NCBI GenBank assembly: GCA_945957605.1
Contig: CAMFLR010000025.1
Location: 1-64,000 of the forward strand
Reading direction: 5' to 3'
DNA: 64,000 nt
From: an uncultured Isosphaeraceae bacterium
Lineage (GTDB): Bacteria; Planctomycetota; Planctomycetia; Isosphaerales; Isosphaeraceae
Of this stretch, positions 54,380 through 64,000 are shown in pieces. A model generated the notes under the pieces. That model was not told the origin of the DNA. It worked only from the letters and a program-made list of their open reading frames with translations, and searched no databases. The translations under genes were made by a program, and so were the position numbers. Positions within the stretch are counted from its first letter, which is position 1. The number at the start of each line of letters is the position of its first letter.

Positions 54380-57043
54380 ATGAACTCACCTTTTGAAATC
54401 CAGTCGCTTTCCTTTACGAAAACGACACTTCCGAACGGACTCGATGTCATCGCAAGACGCCAGGGTGATCTCCCGATCGTCGCGATGAATCTTTGGTACC
54501 ACGTCGGTTCCAAGAACGAGACACGTACCCAGCGCGGTTTCGCACACCTCTTCGAGCACTTGATGTTCGAAGGGTCGGCGCATTACCCCGGCGATTTCTT
54601 CAAGCCGCTCCAAAGGTTAGGGGCGTCGATCAACGGCTCAACCTCGTCCGATCGCACGAATTACTTCGTCGACCTTCCCGTCGCCCACCTGGAGCTCGCT
54701 CTGGCGATGGAGTCGGACCGGATGGGGCATTTTCTCCCCGCGCTCAGCGATGAGAAAATTCGCATCCAGAAAGACGTCGTCAAAAACGAGTATCGCCAAA
54801 ATTATGCCAATCGTCCGTACGGCCAGGCCTGGCGACTGATCGCCGAGGCGATGTACCCGCCCGAACATCCTTATAGCTGGCTGACAATCGGTGCGATGGA
54901 AGACGTCGAAGCGGCGACACGCGGCGACGTTGAAGCCTTCTTCCAAAGGTTTTACGTTCCCAGCAACGCCAGTCTCGCGATTGTGGGGGATATCGACGAA
55001 AGCGAAGCAACCGACCTCGCGGCTCGATATTTCAGCGATCTTCCCGGCGGAATGGCCGCAATTCCCCCGTGGACTCCTCGCGAATACGCCACTCGGCGCA
55101 CAACCGAGATTCGCTACTTCGATCGCGTGGAACTCGATCGGCTCTACCTCGCCTGGCATTCGGTCAATATGTTTGGCGAGGACGACGCCGCGCTCGCGCT
55201 ACTTGCCGACATTCTCACCCGCGGCCGTTCGAGCCGGCTCTACCAGCGGCTGGTGGTGCAAGAGGGGCTGGCGCAAGACGTTTCGTCGTACCAAAGCGGT
55301 CGCGAACTTGCAGGAACATTCGCCGTCACGATCACCCTCCGGCCCGGCCGCTCGTGGGAAGTCGCACGCGACCGCGTCTTGTCGGAAATCGCTGCCATTG
55401 CGCACGAAGGCGTCACGGCCGAGGAACTAACCCGCGTTCAAAACGGCCGGGTTGCCGGTTTTGTCTACGCGCTCGATAACGTCGGCGGATTTGGCGGCGT
55501 GGCCGACCGGCTCAACGCCTACAATGTCTATCTCGGCGATCCTGCACGAATCACGACCGACGTCCGCCGCTACCAGGACGTGCGGCCGGCTGATCTTCGC
55601 ACGGTCGCCGAACGCTATCTCGTCGAGAAGACTGCCGTTCGGCTCGTCGTCCAGCGCAAGCCAAACGTGACGACTTCTGTCGATCGCAGCGTTCCACCCG
55701 ATCCAGGAACGAGCGTGGCCTTCCGCGCACCGGTCCCGCAAATTACCAAATTGCGTTGCGGGGCAGAGTTGTGGATCATCCCGCGCCGGGAATTGCCAAT
55801 CGTCGCAATGTCCTGCGCTTTGCGAGCCGGCGCCGGCATGCATGGTCCCGAAAGTGGTGGACTCGCAAGCCTGACGGCCGATTTGCTCGACGAGGGAACG
55901 AAGTCGCGCGATGCGAATGCGATCGGCGACCTGGCCGCCAATTTGGGGACGCACCTGACTTCGAGCGCAGGGTGGGACGGCTCATATGTTGGGATGCAGT
56001 GCCTGACGCCGCATCTCGAAAAGAGCTTCGACCTCGCTCTGGATATCCTGCAAAACCCCACGTTCCCAGTTGAGCATTTCGACCGGATCAAGGGGCAAAC
56101 GCTCGCTGCGCTCAAGGCCGATCGCGAGAACGCGGCGTCGCGCGCTCACCGCGCTTTCCTTTCCGTACTTTATCCTGAGAGCCATCCTTATCACATCGCA
56201 TCCGACGGCACCGAAGCGACCGTCGGCGGACTCAGTCGCGACGATCTCGCGCGGTATCACCGAGTGTATTACCGGCCAGATCGGGCGGCGATTGTCGTTT
56301 CGGGTGATGTCGACCCAGATCGTATCGCACAACGACTCGACGATTGGCTCGGCGGTTGGGAGCGCAACGGCAATACTGCGCTGCAGCCACCGGCGAATGT
56401 TTCGCGATTGACGGCGCCTCGGGTGATTCTTGTCGATCGTCCAGGGGCGGAGCAGGCTGTAGTGCGGGTGGGAAATATCGGCACATATCGGCTCGACCCA
56501 GATTACAATGATTTGATCGTGTTCAACCAGATTCTCGGCGGTCAGTTCAACTCGCGGCTCAATGCGAAACTCCGCGAAGAGAAGGGATTCACGTACGGCG
56601 TTCGTTCCGGTTTCGATTTCCGCAGAGGTCCAGGACCGTTCACGGTGAGCGCCTCGATCCAGTCCGATAAGGTTGCTGAGGCGCTTGGTGATATTCGCAA
56701 TGAAATCTCCTCGATGTTCGGCGATCGTCCGCCGACTCCGACCGAACTGCAAAACGCCCGACGTGCCTTGATCGAAGGGCAGGCGAAGCATTTTGAGACT
56801 CCCGCGGTCCTCGCTTCGCGCTACGCTACGTTATTCCTTTATGGCTTGCCGCTCGACTACTACAGCGGGCTTGCCGACCGCCTGAACGCGGTTGATATCG
56901 ACTCGATGCTCGCCGCCGCGCGACGGCAGATCAATCCCAACGGGTTCGTCGCTGTGATCGTCGCCGACGCGGACCTTGTTACGAAGGATCTCGAGCAACT
57001 TGGCTGGGGCGCGGTTGAAGTCTGGAGCCAGGCAAGTCATTGA
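54380..57043 (+). CDS. M16-family zinc peptidase, two-domain
   Basis: An 887-aa protein with two M16 (pitrilysin/insulinase-like) halves in one chain. The first half has the inverted zinc motif HLFEH (H56, E59, H60) and the later KNEYRQNYANRPYGQ region with the third ligand. The second half, from about 450, lacks HxxEH and ends with the R/Y-type support motif region, as in inactive partner halves. No signal peptide is evident, so a cytosolic or non-classically located enzyme is likely. The Shine-Dalgarno is weak before ATG 54380. Confidence 0.92.
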   Translation: MNSPFEIQSLSFTKTTLPNGLDVIARRQGDLPIVAMNLWYHVGSKNETRTQRGFAHLFEHLMFEGSAHYPGDFFKPLQRLGASINGSTSSDRTNYFVDLPVAHLELALAMESDRMGHFLPALSDEKIRIQKDVVKNEYRQNYANRPYGQAWRLIAEAMYPPEHPYSWLTIGAMEDVEAATRGDVEAFFQRFYVPSNASLAIVGDIDESEATDLAARYFSDLPGGMAAIPPWTPREYATRRTTEIRYFDRVELDRLYLAWHSVNMFGEDDAALALLADILTRGRSSRLYQRLVVQEGLAQDVSSYQSGRELAGTFAVTITLRPGRSWEVARDRVLSEIAAIAHEGVTAEELTRVQNGRVAGFVYALDNVGGFGGVADRLNAYNVYLGDPARITTDVRRYQDVRPADLRTVAERYLVEKTAVRLVVQRKPNVTTSVDRSVPPDPGTSVAFRAPVPQITKLRCGAELWIIPRRELPIVAMSCALRAGAGMHGPESGGLASLTADLLDEGTKSRDANAIGDLAANLGTHLTSSAGWDGSYVGMQCLTPHLEKSFDLALDILQNPTFPVEHFDRIKGQTLAALKADRENAASRAHRAFLSVLYPESHPYHIASDGTEATVGGLSRDDLARYHRVYYRPDRAAIVVSGDVDPDRIAQRLDDWLGGWERNGNTALQPPANVSRLTAPRVILVDRPGAEQAVVRVGNIGTYRLDPDYNDLIVFNQILGGQFNSRLNAKLREEKGFTYGVRSGFDFRRGPGPFTVSASIQSDKVAEALGDIRNEISSMFGDRPPTPTELQNARRALIEGQAKHFETPAVLASRYATLFLYGLPLDYYSGLADRLNAVDIDSMLAAARRQINPNGFVAVIVADADLVTKDLEQLGWGAVEVWSQASH

Positions 57044-57159
57044 CGAATCCGATAGACTCACACAGGTGAATAAGCCGCGACGGCACGACGTCTAACTGAC
57101 ACCCCTCTCCGCGTCAGTCGCGATCGGTCCCATTGCCCATCTTTCCAGGGACGTCCACG

Positions 57160-58830
57160 ATGGCTCGACATCGGCCCGGGGCCGGGTTCGCACGCTGGCT
57201 GCGGCTTCAGCGCATCCTGATCGTGCGCCGAACGGTTCGACGCCTGCACGACTGGCACCAGTGGCTCCCATCGTGGGGCACAAGCGTGCTCGTCCACGCC
57301 ATCGCCCTGCTCATTCTCGCCCTTATCTATTTCTCCACAGGCTCCGGGCCGCGCGAGTCGCAGTTCAACGGCGAGTTCACGCCTGGACCGGTGCTTGGTG
57401 AGGGACTGATTTCGAGCGTCCCCGCGGAAGTCGCCGGCGATCCGTTTAATACGAACCAAACCAAAGAGTTCCCCTCGTTGAGCTTCGACACAGTGGCGAA
57501 GGGAACGAAGATCATCAACCAGCCCGCGCTCCCGGCCGACGTGAAGTTCACCCACACCATTACACCTCCCCGCGTGGCAGCAATGCCTGGTGTGAAGTTG
57601 TCGGACACAGTGGGGTCACGACTCCATTTCGAGGATTTGAGCGCACCTTTCGCCGGGCGTGACGAAGCGACGCGTGCCAAGCTCGTGAGGCGTGAAGGAG
57701 GTTCGGCCGAGTCGGAAAAAGCGGTGCAAGCCGGTCTCGACTGGATTGCGCGACACCAGCGTCCCGACGGCGCGTGGTCGCTCGATTATCATGGCCAGTG
57801 TGTCGACGATGGCTGCCCATTTGAAACGACGATGGCCTCTGACACCGCCGCAACGGGCCTTGGATTGCTGCCCCTTCTCGGTGCCGGGCATATTCACACG
57901 AAGGAATGCCGATACCAGGATAACGTCCGCCGCGGGCTGGCGTTCTTGATGAAGAATCAGAGCCCTGAAGGCGAGCTTTTTCTGGGAGGAAGCGGAAACA
58001 CGAAGTTTTACTCACACGCGATCGCCGCGATGGCGCTTTGTGAAGCGTACGGCATTTCCAACGATCCCCGGCTCAAGATTCCCGCTCAACGTGCACTCAA
58101 TTTCATCGCCAAGAATCAAAATCTCGACGACGGCGGCTGGCGTTATTTTCCTGGGCAATCGGGTGATACGTCGGTCTTTGGCTGGCAGATGTTTGCCTTA
58201 CGAAGCGGTAAGCTTGCGGGTCTTGAAGTGTCCAAGCGAACGATTGCTGGCTGTCGCAAATATCTCGACCGCGCTGCAACCGATAAAGGCCGCACTGCAT
58301 ACAGTTACCTGATTGGCGGTCCGGCCGATCCGGTGATGACGGCCGAGGCATTGTTGTGTCGTCAATACCTGGGCTGGCCGAATGATTATGGTCCGCTGCT
58401 CAAGGGAGCGAAGTCGGTCTATGATCATTTGCTCGCTTCAGAACAGCGTGATATCTATTATTGGTACTATGCCACGCAGATGTTGCACAACCTTCAAGGC
58501 AAGGAATGGGTTTCCTGGAATAAACGCATTCGTGATGGTCTGGTTGGAATGCAGGTGACGGGCGTCGGTTGTGCAAAAGGAAGTTGGGATCCGCAATCTC
58601 CGCAACGTGACCGCCGCAGTACCGCGGGACGGTTGTACGTCACCTCGCTGTCGATTTTGACGCTCGAAGTTTATTATCGCTGGTTACCGTTGTACAAGCC
58701 GGTTGATCGCAGTGAAGACGGTAACGAGAAGCCGCCGCTTGATGATGAGAAGTCGCAACTCGCGAAGCAAGCGGTGCTTGAACCGGCGGCGAAGCCGGCT
58801 CAGGCGACAGCAAAGAAGAAGGCGAAGTAA
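57160..58830 (+). CDS. Membrane-anchored squalene-cyclase-like repeat protein
   Basis: A 556-aa protein. A basic N-terminus and one membrane helix (WGTSVLVHAIALLILALIYF at about 45-64) precede a Pro-rich linker. From about 190 comes a toroid of prenyltransferase/squalene-oxidase repeats (QAGLDWIARHQRPDGAWSL, RGLAFLMKNQSPEGELF, RALNFIAKNQNLDDGGWRYF). No DXDD cyclase motif is visible. Planctomycetes have many such proteins, of unknown function. The C-terminus is Lys/Ala rich. AGGGA lies about 9 nt before ATG 57160. Confidence 0.88.
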   Translation: MARHRPGAGFARWLRLQRILIVRRTVRRLHDWHQWLPSWGTSVLVHAIALLILALIYFSTGSGPRESQFNGEFTPGPVLGEGLISSVPAEVAGDPFNTNQTKEFPSLSFDTVAKGTKIINQPALPADVKFTHTITPPRVAAMPGVKLSDTVGSRLHFEDLSAPFAGRDEATRAKLVRREGGSAESEKAVQAGLDWIARHQRPDGAWSLDYHGQCVDDGCPFETTMASDTAATGLGLLPLLGAGHIHTKECRYQDNVRRGLAFLMKNQSPEGELFLGGSGNTKFYSHAIAAMALCEAYGISNDPRLKIPAQRALNFIAKNQNLDDGGWRYFPGQSGDTSVFGWQMFALRSGKLAGLEVSKRTIAGCRKYLDRAATDKGRTAYSYLIGGPADPVMTAEALLCRQYLGWPNDYGPLLKGAKSVYDHLLASEQRDIYYWYYATQMLHNLQGKEWVSWNKRIRDGLVGMQVTGVGCAKGSWDPQSPQRDRRSTAGRLYVTSLSILTLEVYYRWLPLYKPVDRSEDGNEKPPLDDEKSQLAKQAVLEPAAKPAQATAKKKAK

Positions 58831-60108: not shown

Positions 60109-63100
60109 TCAAACGCGCGTCTCAACCGACTCCGGATGTTTCAGTCGAATCGGAGCCTGGCCGCTGGGATCGGCACCCGGGTCGGCGAAGAGCCTCACCG
60201 GTTTGCGACCGAGATCGACGAGCGGCTTGATCGAGAATGTCGCGCCGTCTTTGCAGGCTGGGAATCGCTCGATGATCTGGCCGTCGTCGGGGGCGAGCGG
60301 CATTGTTCGCGGATGCGAGACAAGCGCCAGCGGCGGTACTGTTGCGCCGGGCGGGTCGGTGGCGATCGTGATGGCCCAGGGACGCCCTGGAAATGTGGGA
60401 CGTCGCAGCGTGTAACTCACCGTGATTTCAGGATTCGGACCTGGCACGATCGTTCGCGCGGTGGATTCCAGACCGGGCGAGGTGATCTTCACTCCATCAA
60501 CGCTCGCCACGCTGAAGACCGCAAGGTGCCACGGCCCCGGCTGCGATTCGACCGGCAAATTGAGCGTGTAATAGCCTTGGTGGCTGTACTGTCCTTCGGA
60601 AACAGTCGCGGCGATGGCGTCGGGATCGTCGGCACGAATCGGCGCTGATCCGGCGCGAGCAACAACGATTGTCTCCGTCGCGCGAGGCGTCCAGCGCCAG
60701 CGAAGATGAACCTTCCCCGCGCTTCCCACACGCACAGCCCGAAGATCGGTCGGATCGGGAACACTCGAAAAACCGGCGGCTGTGCCAATGGTCGCAGTTC
60801 CATTCAAGAAGACGAAGGGCGTGTAATGGCAGAGCCCAATGGCGGGCGGTTCGGGATCGGTCGTCGCGTCGGAACGCATCGAATCAAGCCAGATCCCTTC
60901 GATCTTGTTGACCTCGGTTGCGGTGAGTCGCGCACCCGCGGGATGGGGCAGGGGATGAGTCGTCCGCAGAATCTTCACCGACCCGCGCGGCACTGCGGGC
61001 CAGTGGATCGTAACGCGGCCGTCGATTTCGGGGACGATCGACAGCGGACCAGCAGGCGCGGCGGGAGGAGCAGGTGTCGCCGCGATTTCGATGCCCGGTG
61101 AAAGAATCGTCTTACCGTCGCTCGACGTGAAAATAGCGTGGATTCGGTAGCGATAGATCCGCTTGTCGTCGAGGCCGCGATCGACGGCGTGGTCGGATAG
61201 GCTGTCGATGGTCGTTTCGGGAACGCCGGGCATTCCCAAGCGGGCGACCTTTGCTCCCTTCGCGCCGCGAGGCAGCGTCCAACTCAGCGTGATCTCGCCG
61301 CTCGACCCATCGGCGCGCAAATCGTCGACTTCGAGCACAACCGCCTGCGGTGCAACGGTTGCGCCGGTCTGTGAAACAACACCGTTGCGCACGCTGAAGA
61401 TTGCATATCCGACGGATTGACCCGTCGGCACATTTGTGTCGGTGAATTCGGTCAAATCAAGGTCTTTGATGGCCGTGCCATCCTTGACCTGATCAGGTGT
61501 GCCGCCGACTTTGCGGACGACCCGAAAAGTGCACGGCCCGATCCCATCGGCCGAAGGCGGCGACCAACGCACGCTCACGCCATTTGTGCCGACGGTTGCA
61601 GTGGCGTTTGTCGGTGGATCGGGCGGACAGCGTTTGAGACCTTCGCGCGCGTCCTGCAAATCGACGGCAACTTCGAGTGCTCTGCGATAAAATGAGCGAG
61701 CTGCCCGGGGATCGCGCGACTCAGCGTTGCGGCCCTGCGCGATCAGATCCTGAGCTTCGCGAAGCGCACCCAGTAAGTCGCCCTGGGCAGCGCGAATTCC
61801 TTGCGACGTAGGATCTACTAGCGACGCCCACGTCAGCAGCGCCTGGCGCGCCGCGAGCAAATGCTTGCGGCTACGAGCCAGCTCGAATTCTCCTTTCGCC
61901 GCCTCAACCTCTGCGAGCCGTTCCTTCACTTTCTCGACGGCCTTACGCGCACCAACGTGCCGGGGCGCATATTCCTGAACGCGGCCGAGATGTTCGAGCG
62001 CTGCATCGTAATCGCGAACTTTGTGCGCGTGCTGAGCCGCCTCGAAATGCTTCACCAGCGACTCAAGATTGCAGACCTCAAACCCGCACGAGCACCGCGA
62101 TTCATCGGCCCAATGCGCCCTGCGACACGTTGGGCATTCCCACCGCAAGGTTGCCCGGCAATGCCGGCAAACGGCGGCATCAAGCTGCTTGGCGACGCGC
62201 GAAAACTCCGTCAACCCAGTGCATGAGCGACAGCGAATGTAACGCGGAGGTGCCTCGTCGAGGCTGAATGACGCCAGCCCGCCGCCATCGCGCGAAATTC
62301 CGGCGGTGCGGCAGGCGAGCGTCAAAATTCGTTCCGCGCGATCGGGAATAATTCCATAAGCCGCCGCTTCGTCGAGCAGCACATGCCGCGAGCCTGGGTC
62401 GAGATTCGAGACCCCTTCGAGCGCGAAGGCGATGATCTCGCGGTAACTGTCTTCTGCCTCTCGGATCAAAGTTTTTTCGTACTTGGATCGCCCCTCGGGT
62501 TGAGCCAGGTGCGACTGAGCATACGAAATCACCTCGAGCCAGGCTGTTTTCTCGGCCGTCACCTGGCTTTTGCGCATCCAGCGCTGGCGTTCGTCATCGG
62601 CGCGGCGGGCGACTTCCGAAATCGCTGCATCGCGGCCAAGTCCGAGCGCGTCGAAGAGATCGCGCTTACCGACGAGTTCGAGCGCCGCTCGTATTTGCCG
62701 GCGCGTCACTGGATCGAGGCTTTCATCAGGCGGTTCAGGAGCGTCGACGGCTTGCGGCGCCTCGGCTTTGGGCGGGTAGGGCTCGGTGAGCTTGGTAAGG
62801 TCGTCGCCTGTGAGTCCGAGTTTGGTCGCACGATCGCGCAACAAATCGCGATCGCTTACCGTCAGGCCACCTTTGGCCGCCCTAAGGCGTACGAGCCGCT
62901 GAAGCTCATTGAGCTTTGATTCGCGTGCGGCAGCCGCATCGGCGGCGAGTTCGGCGTCGTAAGCAGCACGCGTGGCGGGATCGCCGAGCAGGCGGCGGCG
63001 GATCTCGGGAACTTGGTCGAGATACGACTGATATGTGTGTTTGTACTTAGGATTGCGCGTGCCCGACGACCATTGATGACGGCAGCGTTCGAGCGCTGCT

Positions 63101-63162
63101 TCGATGGCAGCACGATCGGCACGGCTCGTCACGCCCAGGAGCGCGTAATAGTCGGAAACCAT
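60109..63162 (-). CDS. J-like / zinc-ribbon / FN3 multidomain protein
   Basis: A 1017-aa soluble protein. Residues 4-72 have the helix pattern of a DnaJ J-domain (DYYALLGVTSRADRAAIEAA ... LLGDPATRAAYDAEL) but no HPD tripeptide. A second J-like region is seen near 165-230 (DLFDALGLGRDAAISE). Zinc ribbons around 308-370 contain CRSC, CRHC, CPTC and CSCGFEVC. A helical TPR-like part (about 370-500) follows, then several FN3-like beta domains to the end (SPPSADGIGPCTFRVVRK; ITLSWTLPRGAKGAKV). It probably acts as a scaffold or chaperone adaptor; without HPD it should not stimulate Hsp70. It lies 101 bp after a GAF-like gene on the same strand. Confidence 0.8.
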   Translation of the reverse strand: MVSDYYALLGVTSRADRAAIEAALERCRHQWSSGTRNPKYKHTYQSYLDQVPEIRRRLLGDPATRAAYDAELAADAAAARESKLNELQRLVRLRAAKGGLTVSDRDLLRDRATKLGLTGDDLTKLTEPYPPKAEAPQAVDAPEPPDESLDPVTRRQIRAALELVGKRDLFDALGLGRDAAISEVARRADDERQRWMRKSQVTAEKTAWLEVISYAQSHLAQPEGRSKYEKTLIREAEDSYREIIAFALEGVSNLDPGSRHVLLDEAAAYGIIPDRAERILTLACRTAGISRDGGGLASFSLDEAPPRYIRCRSCTGLTEFSRVAKQLDAAVCRHCRATLRWECPTCRRAHWADESRCSCGFEVCNLESLVKHFEAAQHAHKVRDYDAALEHLGRVQEYAPRHVGARKAVEKVKERLAEVEAAKGEFELARSRKHLLAARQALLTWASLVDPTSQGIRAAQGDLLGALREAQDLIAQGRNAESRDPRAARSFYRRALEVAVDLQDAREGLKRCPPDPPTNATATVGTNGVSVRWSPPSADGIGPCTFRVVRKVGGTPDQVKDGTAIKDLDLTEFTDTNVPTGQSVGYAIFSVRNGVVSQTGATVAPQAVVLEVDDLRADGSSGEITLSWTLPRGAKGAKVARLGMPGVPETTIDSLSDHAVDRGLDDKRIYRYRIHAIFTSSDGKTILSPGIEIAATPAPPAAPAGPLSIVPEIDGRVTIHWPAVPRGSVKILRTTHPLPHPAGARLTATEVNKIEGIWLDSMRSDATTDPEPPAIGLCHYTPFVFLNGTATIGTAAGFSSVPDPTDLRAVRVGSAGKVHLRWRWTPRATETIVVARAGSAPIRADDPDAIAATVSEGQYSHQGYYTLNLPVESQPGPWHLAVFSVASVDGVKITSPGLESTARTIVPGPNPEITVSYTLRRPTFPGRPWAITIATDPPGATVPPLALVSHPRTMPLAPDDGQIIERFPACKDGATFSIKPLVDLGRKPVRLFADPGADPSGQAPIRLKHPESVETRV

Positions 63163-63263: not shown

Positions 63264-63728
63264 TCAGAGTTCGTCGAGCCACGTCGCTTTTTCCGCCATC
63301 GTGCGAATCGCCTCTCCAAGAATCGTGGCTGACGGCTCCAAACTTCCAAGCGCGATGGCAATAGCGGCTACGGTGCGGCCGTCGCGATCGATTGGCACGG
63401 CAACCGATCGCGGCGTCTTGAATTCGCCGAGCCAGTAGGCCGACCCAATCTGGCCCGGCACGTCGGAGGAGAACATTTCGGTGACCTGACCGGTCGTCAC
63501 GGCCCCGACGATTCCCAGTGGCGTGTTGTCGATTGGCACCTCACGCGTTGCGAGGGCGAATCGCTCGGAGGCCTCGCGAGGCAGGTCGAGTGCGGCATCG
63601 AAGGAGATTTGCCGGAGCAGATTCGCCTGCGCGTCGACCACCCATACCCCGGCCGCCCGGCCATGAAGGTCGACTCTCAGGCGTCTCAGCCAGTTGGCGA
63701 CGTTTGCCGGGCCGGTGGGGTACGTCAT
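63264..63728 (-). CDS. GAF-like small protein, 154 aa
   Basis: An alpha/beta protein with two strand-rich segments (GVWVVDAQANLLRQISFD and RSVAVPIDRDGRTVAAIAIA) as in GAF or roadblock-like folds; no attached output domain. ATG 63728 lies 8 bp after the FKBP gene stop, and the J-like gene follows, so the three may form an operon. Function unknown. Confidence 0.6.
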   Translation of the reverse strand: MTYPTGPANVANWLRRLRVDLHGRAAGVWVVDAQANLLRQISFDAALDLPREASERFALATREVPIDNTPLGIVGAVTTGQVTEMFSSDVPGQIGSAYWLGEFKTPRSVAVPIDRDGRTVAAIAIALGSLEPSATILGEAIRTMAEKATWLDEL

Positions 63729-63736
63729 GGTTGAAA

Positions 63737-64000
63737 TTAGCCAACCTTGATGAGTTCAACGACGAACTTGAGCGTTGCGTTTGGCGGAATGACGCCGCCC
63801 GCGCCCGCTGCACCGTAAGCTTCTTCGGGGGGAATCGTCAACTCGCGCTTGCCGCCTTCCTTCATGCCAAGAACGCCAACTTCCCAGCCGGTGATCACCC
63901 TGCGCTGGCCGAGCGTGAAGCCGAACGGCGTGCCGCGGTCGTGCGAGCTGTCGAATTTCTTACCGTCCATCAAGGTGCCGGTGTAATGCACGCTCACGCG
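63737..64000 (-). CDS. FKBP-type peptidyl-prolyl isomerase (start outside window)
   Basis: Eighty-seven C-terminal residues of an FKBP domain: [48 protein letters not shown] and the final [15 protein letters not shown]. The frame is open through the right edge, so the true start lies beyond 64000; the internal GTG at 63997 is not the start. It catalyses proline isomerisation in protein folding. Confidence 0.93.

Follow-up and report, generated by a model that had tools for sequence, protein, structure and literature searches.

The window, which is the whole 64,000-nucleotide stretch of Isosphaeraceae DNA analysed here, carries on its reverse strand an open reading frame (ORF) at 60109..63162 that encodes a protein of 1,017 aa with FNIII and J-like parts, referred to below as the scaffold. 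The ORF, strand and coordinates of the original prediction were confirmed, and the gene is conserved across Isosphaeraceae: a family-wide search recovered it in 37 of 45 genomes, with loci in the named genera Singulisphaera, Tautonia, Paludisphaera and Aquisphaera, and the aligned full-length orthologues share 36-52% identity. An earlier search of relatives had found orthologues in 31 of 59, one of the 31 being a weak FN3 match alone. Scanning contigs with a single scaffold protein as the query found no relative, and an alignment-based scan returned 23 scaffold loci, all of them, judging from the titles, from one family. The gene is present as a single copy in the window's genome; a second match there (C1:37687, E 0.015) was a zinc-ribbon resemblance only and was rejected as a scaffold paralogue. 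PADLOC and NCBIfam gave no match for the scaffold, and none of seven proteins matched the known defence families of PADLOC. No N-terminal signal was found, and the chain begins with its first J fold. The full-length structural model had a pLDDT of 82.6 and a pTM of 0.34; given this pTM, the relative placement of the domains is not fixed, and the model renders the zinc ribbon poorly.

The first J fold, J1, occupies aa 1-72 (62947..63162; all scaffold features lie on the reverse strand), and the second, J2, occupies aa 166-237 (62452..62667). Pfam DnaJ matched the window protein weakly (E 0.067) and matched 23 of 25 aligned family members, with a best value of 2.5e-9. A profile built from aa 1-296 retrieved solved J domains, including 2ej7 (E 1.6e-5) and DnaJ from its complex with DnaK (5nro, E 5.6e-4); the profile matches for J2 were weak (E 0.042 and 0.38). 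Structure prediction for aa 1-296 (pLDDT 85.5, pTM 0.53) gave a model in which VIA-align placed J domains at aa 1-78, with a best Z of 10.1 to 6rzy and a Z of 8.0 to 5nro_B, and at approximately aa 165-237, with a best Z of 8.4-8.5 to 2och and 2ctr. Foldseek ranked J domains at the top with a probability near 1 and with E-values that were not significant (best 0.21). Because a VIA-align Z below about 13 is not strong by itself for helical folds, and because no Foldseek E-value was significant, the assignment of J2 rests on its fold plus its arrangement. The structure prediction and fold search proposed at the outset thus placed a J fold in the predicted model twice, in agreement with the predicted J-like N-terminus and second J-like stretch.

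Both J folds lack HPD at the expected site, as alignment, profile alignment and a motif check all showed; the original prediction had noted this for J1, and J2 proved to be likewise. At the J1 site, the window protein has WSSGTRNPK (aa 31-39, 63046..63072), and the profile alignments set the HPDRN of DnaJ opposite S-G-T-RN of the scaffold. The J2 site is occupied by WMRKSQVTAEKTAWLE (aa 195-210, 62533..62580), as seen in the family alignment and the motif check. The motifs conserved in the family are WSxG[TA]RNPK at the J1 site and QVTAEKTAW at the J2 site. In 5 of 25 family proteins, an HPD triplet turns up elsewhere in the chain, seemingly by chance. HPD is regarded as indispensable if J proteins are to drive HSP70, and, given its absence, we refer to the scaffold as a J-like protein and do not class it as a canonical J-domain protein.

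The remainder of the chain agrees with the zinc ribbons, TPR-like helices and several FN3-like domains that had been predicted. A double zinc ribbon spans aa 308-361 (62080..62241), where model confidence is low; its eight cysteines (C311, C314, C332, C335, C343, C346, C357 and C359) form a double-ribbon pattern and are conserved in 24 of 25 family members, and Pfam DZR matches homologues, the window protein itself being without a match. The exception is the orthologue at L056:9402-12428 (genome G020), in which all zinc-ribbon cysteines are gone, while the two J motifs are kept, as is the HSP70 pair described below. TPR-like helices follow at aa 363-511 (61630..62076), with a model pLDDT of about 90, Pfam TPR matches in 5 of 25 members and TPR chains among the profile matches. 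The FN3 array extends over aa 515-910 (60433..61620, borders approximate) and was recognized by Foldseek (3t1w, E 4.3e-13), by profile matches to titin and neogenin and, weakly, by Pfam fn3 (E 0.0015); a viral fold library returned FN3 and phage tail proteins. A beta-rich stretch in the predicted model closes the chain (aa 911-1017, 60112..60432). FN3 domains in a protein without a signal sequence had been called unusual, which holds in general, but the main text of PMC7159879 describes this feature for GAP1-N2 systems.

Upstream of the scaffold and on the same strand lie a GAF-like gene (63264..63728) and an FKBP gene (63737..64000) that continues beyond the window edge. The FKBP assignment comes from Pfam (FKBP_C, 1e-34); the GAF-like assignment derives from Pfam GAF matches in 4 of 8 relatives, as no Pfam GAF match was obtained for the window copy. 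These genes had been taken to suggest a folding or conflict-related complex with the scaffold, a reading that their shared strand and tight spacing in the window encourage. However, when the neighbourhoods of 30 loci were compared (28 with at least 1 kb of upstream sequence), a GAF-like gene was found upstream in only 8 and an FKBP gene in 6, whereas a membrane cytochrome c gene, an unlikely partner, was found in 16; furthermore, neither FKBP nor GAF was recognized beside the distant homologues described below, by eye and by Pfam on chosen genes. The two genes are therefore weakly conserved neighbours that do not explain the scaffold, the GAF-like gene is placed outside the core system, and a complex of the scaffold with the FKBP and GAF-like proteins is highly improbable. 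The notion of a folding or conflict-related complex itself came close to the outcome, but the evidence for it comes from HSP70 operons and co-inheritance, not from GAF and FKBP. Elsewhere in the window, on the forward strand, a long ORF at 54380-57043 looks by eye like an M16-type zinc peptidase in duplicate, with an HxxEH-like motif, and 57133-58830 encodes a protein with a membrane anchor and repeats of the squalene-hopene-cyclase type (Pfam PF13243, 5.5e-9). No HSP70, GTPase or GAP1 gene is linked to the scaffold in the window's genome. Since its neighbourhood, examined in the surroundings of the window, contains no double-GTPase or GAP1, we regard the scaffold as a dispersed homologue that stands outside neighbourhoods of this type.

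We also searched more widely for scaffold homologues. A phylum scan gave matches of any kind in 81 of 392 genomes, mostly to single domains, most of the weak ones covering FN3, TPR or one J stretch. In a class scan that used the L143 protein as its query, 45 of 397 genomes gave matches. Together, these scans yielded homologues encoded beside HSP70 genes in three other lineages. At L143, the gene order by Pfam is GrpE, HSP70, HSP70+VWA, FNIII/J, DO-GTPase2, GAP1-N2 and DO-GTPase2; at L181, it is HSP70, HSP70+VWA, a J/DZR/TPR protein and GAP1-N2; and at L183, it is GrpE, HSP70 and FNIII/J (family HMM E 2.1e-48), with no HSP70-vWA in the stretch examined. The scaffold family is homologous to the L143 FNIII/J protein over its full length (hhalign E 5.5e-39 over 936 columns; BLASTP E 1e-29). 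In an alignment of four J-like homologues, HPD was missing from the J1 and J2 sites of every one. The view that a protein without HPD does not act on HSP70 is doubtful, because genes for dedicated HSP70s lie next to those of HPD-less homologues.

Several further loci were recorded during these searches. Near the L143 double-GTPase operon, L180:5551-7974 (G430) encodes a second J/zinc-ribbon/TPR paralogue with a transmembrane-like stretch and no FN3. At another locus, L144:990-4124 (G143) encodes an FN3-rich homologue of 1,044 aa beside a kinase-like gene, in which no J part was seen. The nine GAP1-N2 loci examined first, G000 included, were rejected as the home of the scaffold, as no scaffold homologue was present in any of them. 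G000 also carries a second, core double-GTPase of 774 aa (C18; L194:8943-12642), and the adjacent ORF is GAP1-N2-like by eye, with no Pfam match. DO-GTPase2 matches occurred in all 37 family genomes searched for them, including genomes without the HSP70 genes considered next.

In the window's genome, the candidate partners are encoded on contigs other than that of the scaffold. An operon on C4 encodes an HSP70 (577 aa as predicted; the short HSP70, whose C-terminal region is divergent) and an HSP70-vWA of about 685 aa, together with one vWA protein and two FHA proteins, while a large GAP1 lies on C21 and a zinc-ribbon GTPase on C8. With Pfam, GAP1-M scored 35.7 bits, above its cut-off, and GAP1-N2 (17.6 bits) and DO-GTPase2 (26.3 bits) scored below theirs. 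The FHA and vWA proteins of the operon are membrane-spanning by reading of their sequences, a hint that the system may act near the membrane. In G027, GAP1, the GTPase, GrpE, HSP70 and HSP70-vWA all fall inside approximately 30 kb, and the scaffold is about 2.2 Mb away. A plasmid search with HSP70-vWA gave DnaK as the annotated matches among those listed, and 2 of 254 records covered 80% of the query.

Across the 45 family genomes, the scaffold was found in 37, the short HSP70 in 36, HSP70-vWA (scored from matches better than 1e-140 that did not resemble DnaK) in 35, the large GAP1 in 17 and the zinc-ribbon GTPase in 16, the last count omitting four weaker matches (G012, G013, G005 and G453). 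The scaffold and HSP70-vWA are co-inherited: 35 genomes have both, none has HSP70-vWA alone, two (G012 and G013) have the scaffold alone and eight have neither (Fisher 2e-7). The same table reads 25/0/2/5 for the 32 genomes that are at least 90% complete (p 1e-4) and 16/0/2/3 by genus (p 0.0075), statistics that account for ancestry no further than genus, the genomes of one family not being independent. The short HSP70 accompanies HSP70-vWA in all 35 genomes and occurs additionally in G011 (81% complete), where it sits at a contig end, so that the absence of HSP70-vWA from this genome may be an assembly gap. Thus, 35 genomes have the trio, seven have none of the three genes, two have the scaffold only, and G011 is an assembly edge case. 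By contrast, the large GAP1 is missing from 18 of the 35 trio-bearing genomes; GAP1 and its GTPase are therefore not obligatory partners.

It might be argued that the scaffold is a lineage-specific structural protein without any link to HSP70, and that its co-occurrence with the HSP70 genes reflects shared ancestry and genome reduction. The co-occurrence data all come from one family, several scaffold-less genomes are small or incomplete, GAP1 and the GTPase are not constant, and the co-absence of the trio rests on about three to five lineages. However, G007 and G014 lack all three genes, whereas the other genomes of their genera (g7 and g14) keep all three, and homologues in three other lineages are encoded beside HSP70 genes. 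We consider a structural protein of this kind very unlikely, and a partnership between the scaffold and the HSP70 pair to be well supported by the genomic evidence.

The fate of the two substitute motifs was followed in 36 of the 37 scaffold genomes; G527 was left out, its contig being without the N-terminus. Both motifs are intact in 34 of 34 genomes with HSP70-vWA, counting as intact the TVW for TAW of G002, which fails the strict pattern, and are destroyed in both genomes without it. J1 has disappeared completely from G012; G013 has other sequence in place of both motifs, and its scaffold gene is broken into two frames. A tree of the C-terminal part of the scaffold groups G012 with G013 as sisters (97/100); because they are sister lineages, we count their motif loss as one background event with two outcomes. 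G020 represents the opposite case, having lost the zinc-ribbon cysteines and retained the J motifs and HSP70s.

The receptor side was compared with DnaK, whose R167 is the arginine contacted by the HPD aspartate, as described in PMC7289447. At this position, the short private HSP70 lacks arginine in 20 of 20 sequences (alanine in 16, serine in 2, tyrosine in 1 and aspartate in 1), and HSP70-vWA keeps it in 14 of 17. The LLLD linker is absent from all private HSP70s aligned, while both DnaK references have the arginine and the linker. As HSP70-vWA mostly keeps the arginine, the loss of HPD is matched by a receptor loss only for the short HSP70; a changed J contact is thus plausible in the case of the short HSP70, and the picture is less clear with HSP70-vWA.

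These observations bear on what the J folds might do. Pam16/Magmas has a J fold without HPD and is tied to an HSP70 motor, and the J folds of the scaffold could similarly be inactive modules that form pairs, either between themselves or with a separate J protein, and whose role would be limited to holding or restraining the HSP70s, with the motifs serving as folding or dimer contacts. Such HPD-less J-like proteins are known, and the scaffold has two J folds within one chain. Nevertheless, motif conservation tracks the presence of the HSP70 pair, and the loss of the HPD-reading arginine from the short HSP70 suggests an altered contact rather than none, and we therefore judge such inactive modules unlikely. 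It is conceivable instead, though we hold it only tentatively, that the J folds use an alternative J-HSP70 code, addressing the two private HSP70s through WSxG[TA]RNPK and QVTAEKTAW; the short HSP70 would have dropped the HPD-reading arginine and the linker, the pairing would be insulated from DnaK/DnaJ, and a former conflict module would have been split and domesticated.

Overall, we propose that the scaffold is probably the FNIII/J part of a dedicated HSP70 machine that is related to the HSP70 branch of GAP1-N2 double-GTPase systems and is dispersed in Isosphaeraceae. Such a machine would be split, with the scaffold at one locus, the short HSP70 and HSP70-vWA elsewhere, and GAP1 and the zinc-ribbon GTPase in under half of the genomes. 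The scaffold would gather the private HSP70s by its J folds, J1 and J2 docking on them via WSxG[TA]RNPK and QVTAEKTAW in place of HPD. The TPR and FN3 parts may hold a client, or the GTPase and GAP1 proteins, and present the client to the HSP70s; GrpE would reset the HSP70 cycle, which GrpE and the vWA domain would complete, and GAP1 and the GTPase, where present, could gate the machine. The architecture, the predicted J folds, the loss of HPD, the homology to operon-encoded components, the co-inheritance and the joint motif loss are observed; physical contact, ATPase control, the client and the physiological role are inferred. A domesticated role appears more likely than that of an active mobile conflict system, because the trio is vertical in most of the family and occurs without the large GAP1 in about half of its genomes.

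HPD-less J folds are tied here to dedicated HSP70s by genomics, and their replacement motifs decay once the partners are lost, which suggests an unconventional mode of cooperation between J proteins and HSP70s and makes rewired J-HSP70 pairing open to test in a natural example. Moreover, a conflict-type double-GTPase/HSP70 module appears to survive, in a family with cultured members, as three scattered genes inherited vertically. The type of component has already been described: the main text of Kaur et al. 2020 (PMC7159879) sets out an 'HSP70 theme' of GAP1-N2 neighbourhoods, predominantly actinobacterial and firmicute, in which HSP70 and GrpE are accompanied by an FNIII component fused to DnaJ or TPR. 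That main text makes no mention of HPD, Isosphaera or Singulisphaera. No published Isosphaeraceae or HPD-less version was found among the open-access papers searched, nor any account of the dispersed planctomycete arrangement, of a pair of substitute motifs or of the decay of such motifs where the partners are lost.

The scaffold resembles the GAP1-N2 FNIII component in that FNIII repeats are fused to J and TPR parts, neither has a signal sequence, and scaffold homologues occur in operons with GTPase, GAP1-N2, HSP70 and GrpE. It differs in being unlinked to its partners and vertically conserved in one family, in having lost HPD with conserved substitutes, and in having an HSP70 partner fused to vWA. 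With canonical DnaJ, the scaffold shares the J fold, an aligned N-terminus and RN after the HPD site, but its HPD is replaced (D to T or A), it has two J folds and no G/F region was seen in it. Finally, it shares with Pam16/Magmas an HPD-less J fold and a tie to HSP70s, in its case by genomics, although the scaffold is a multidomain bacterial protein.
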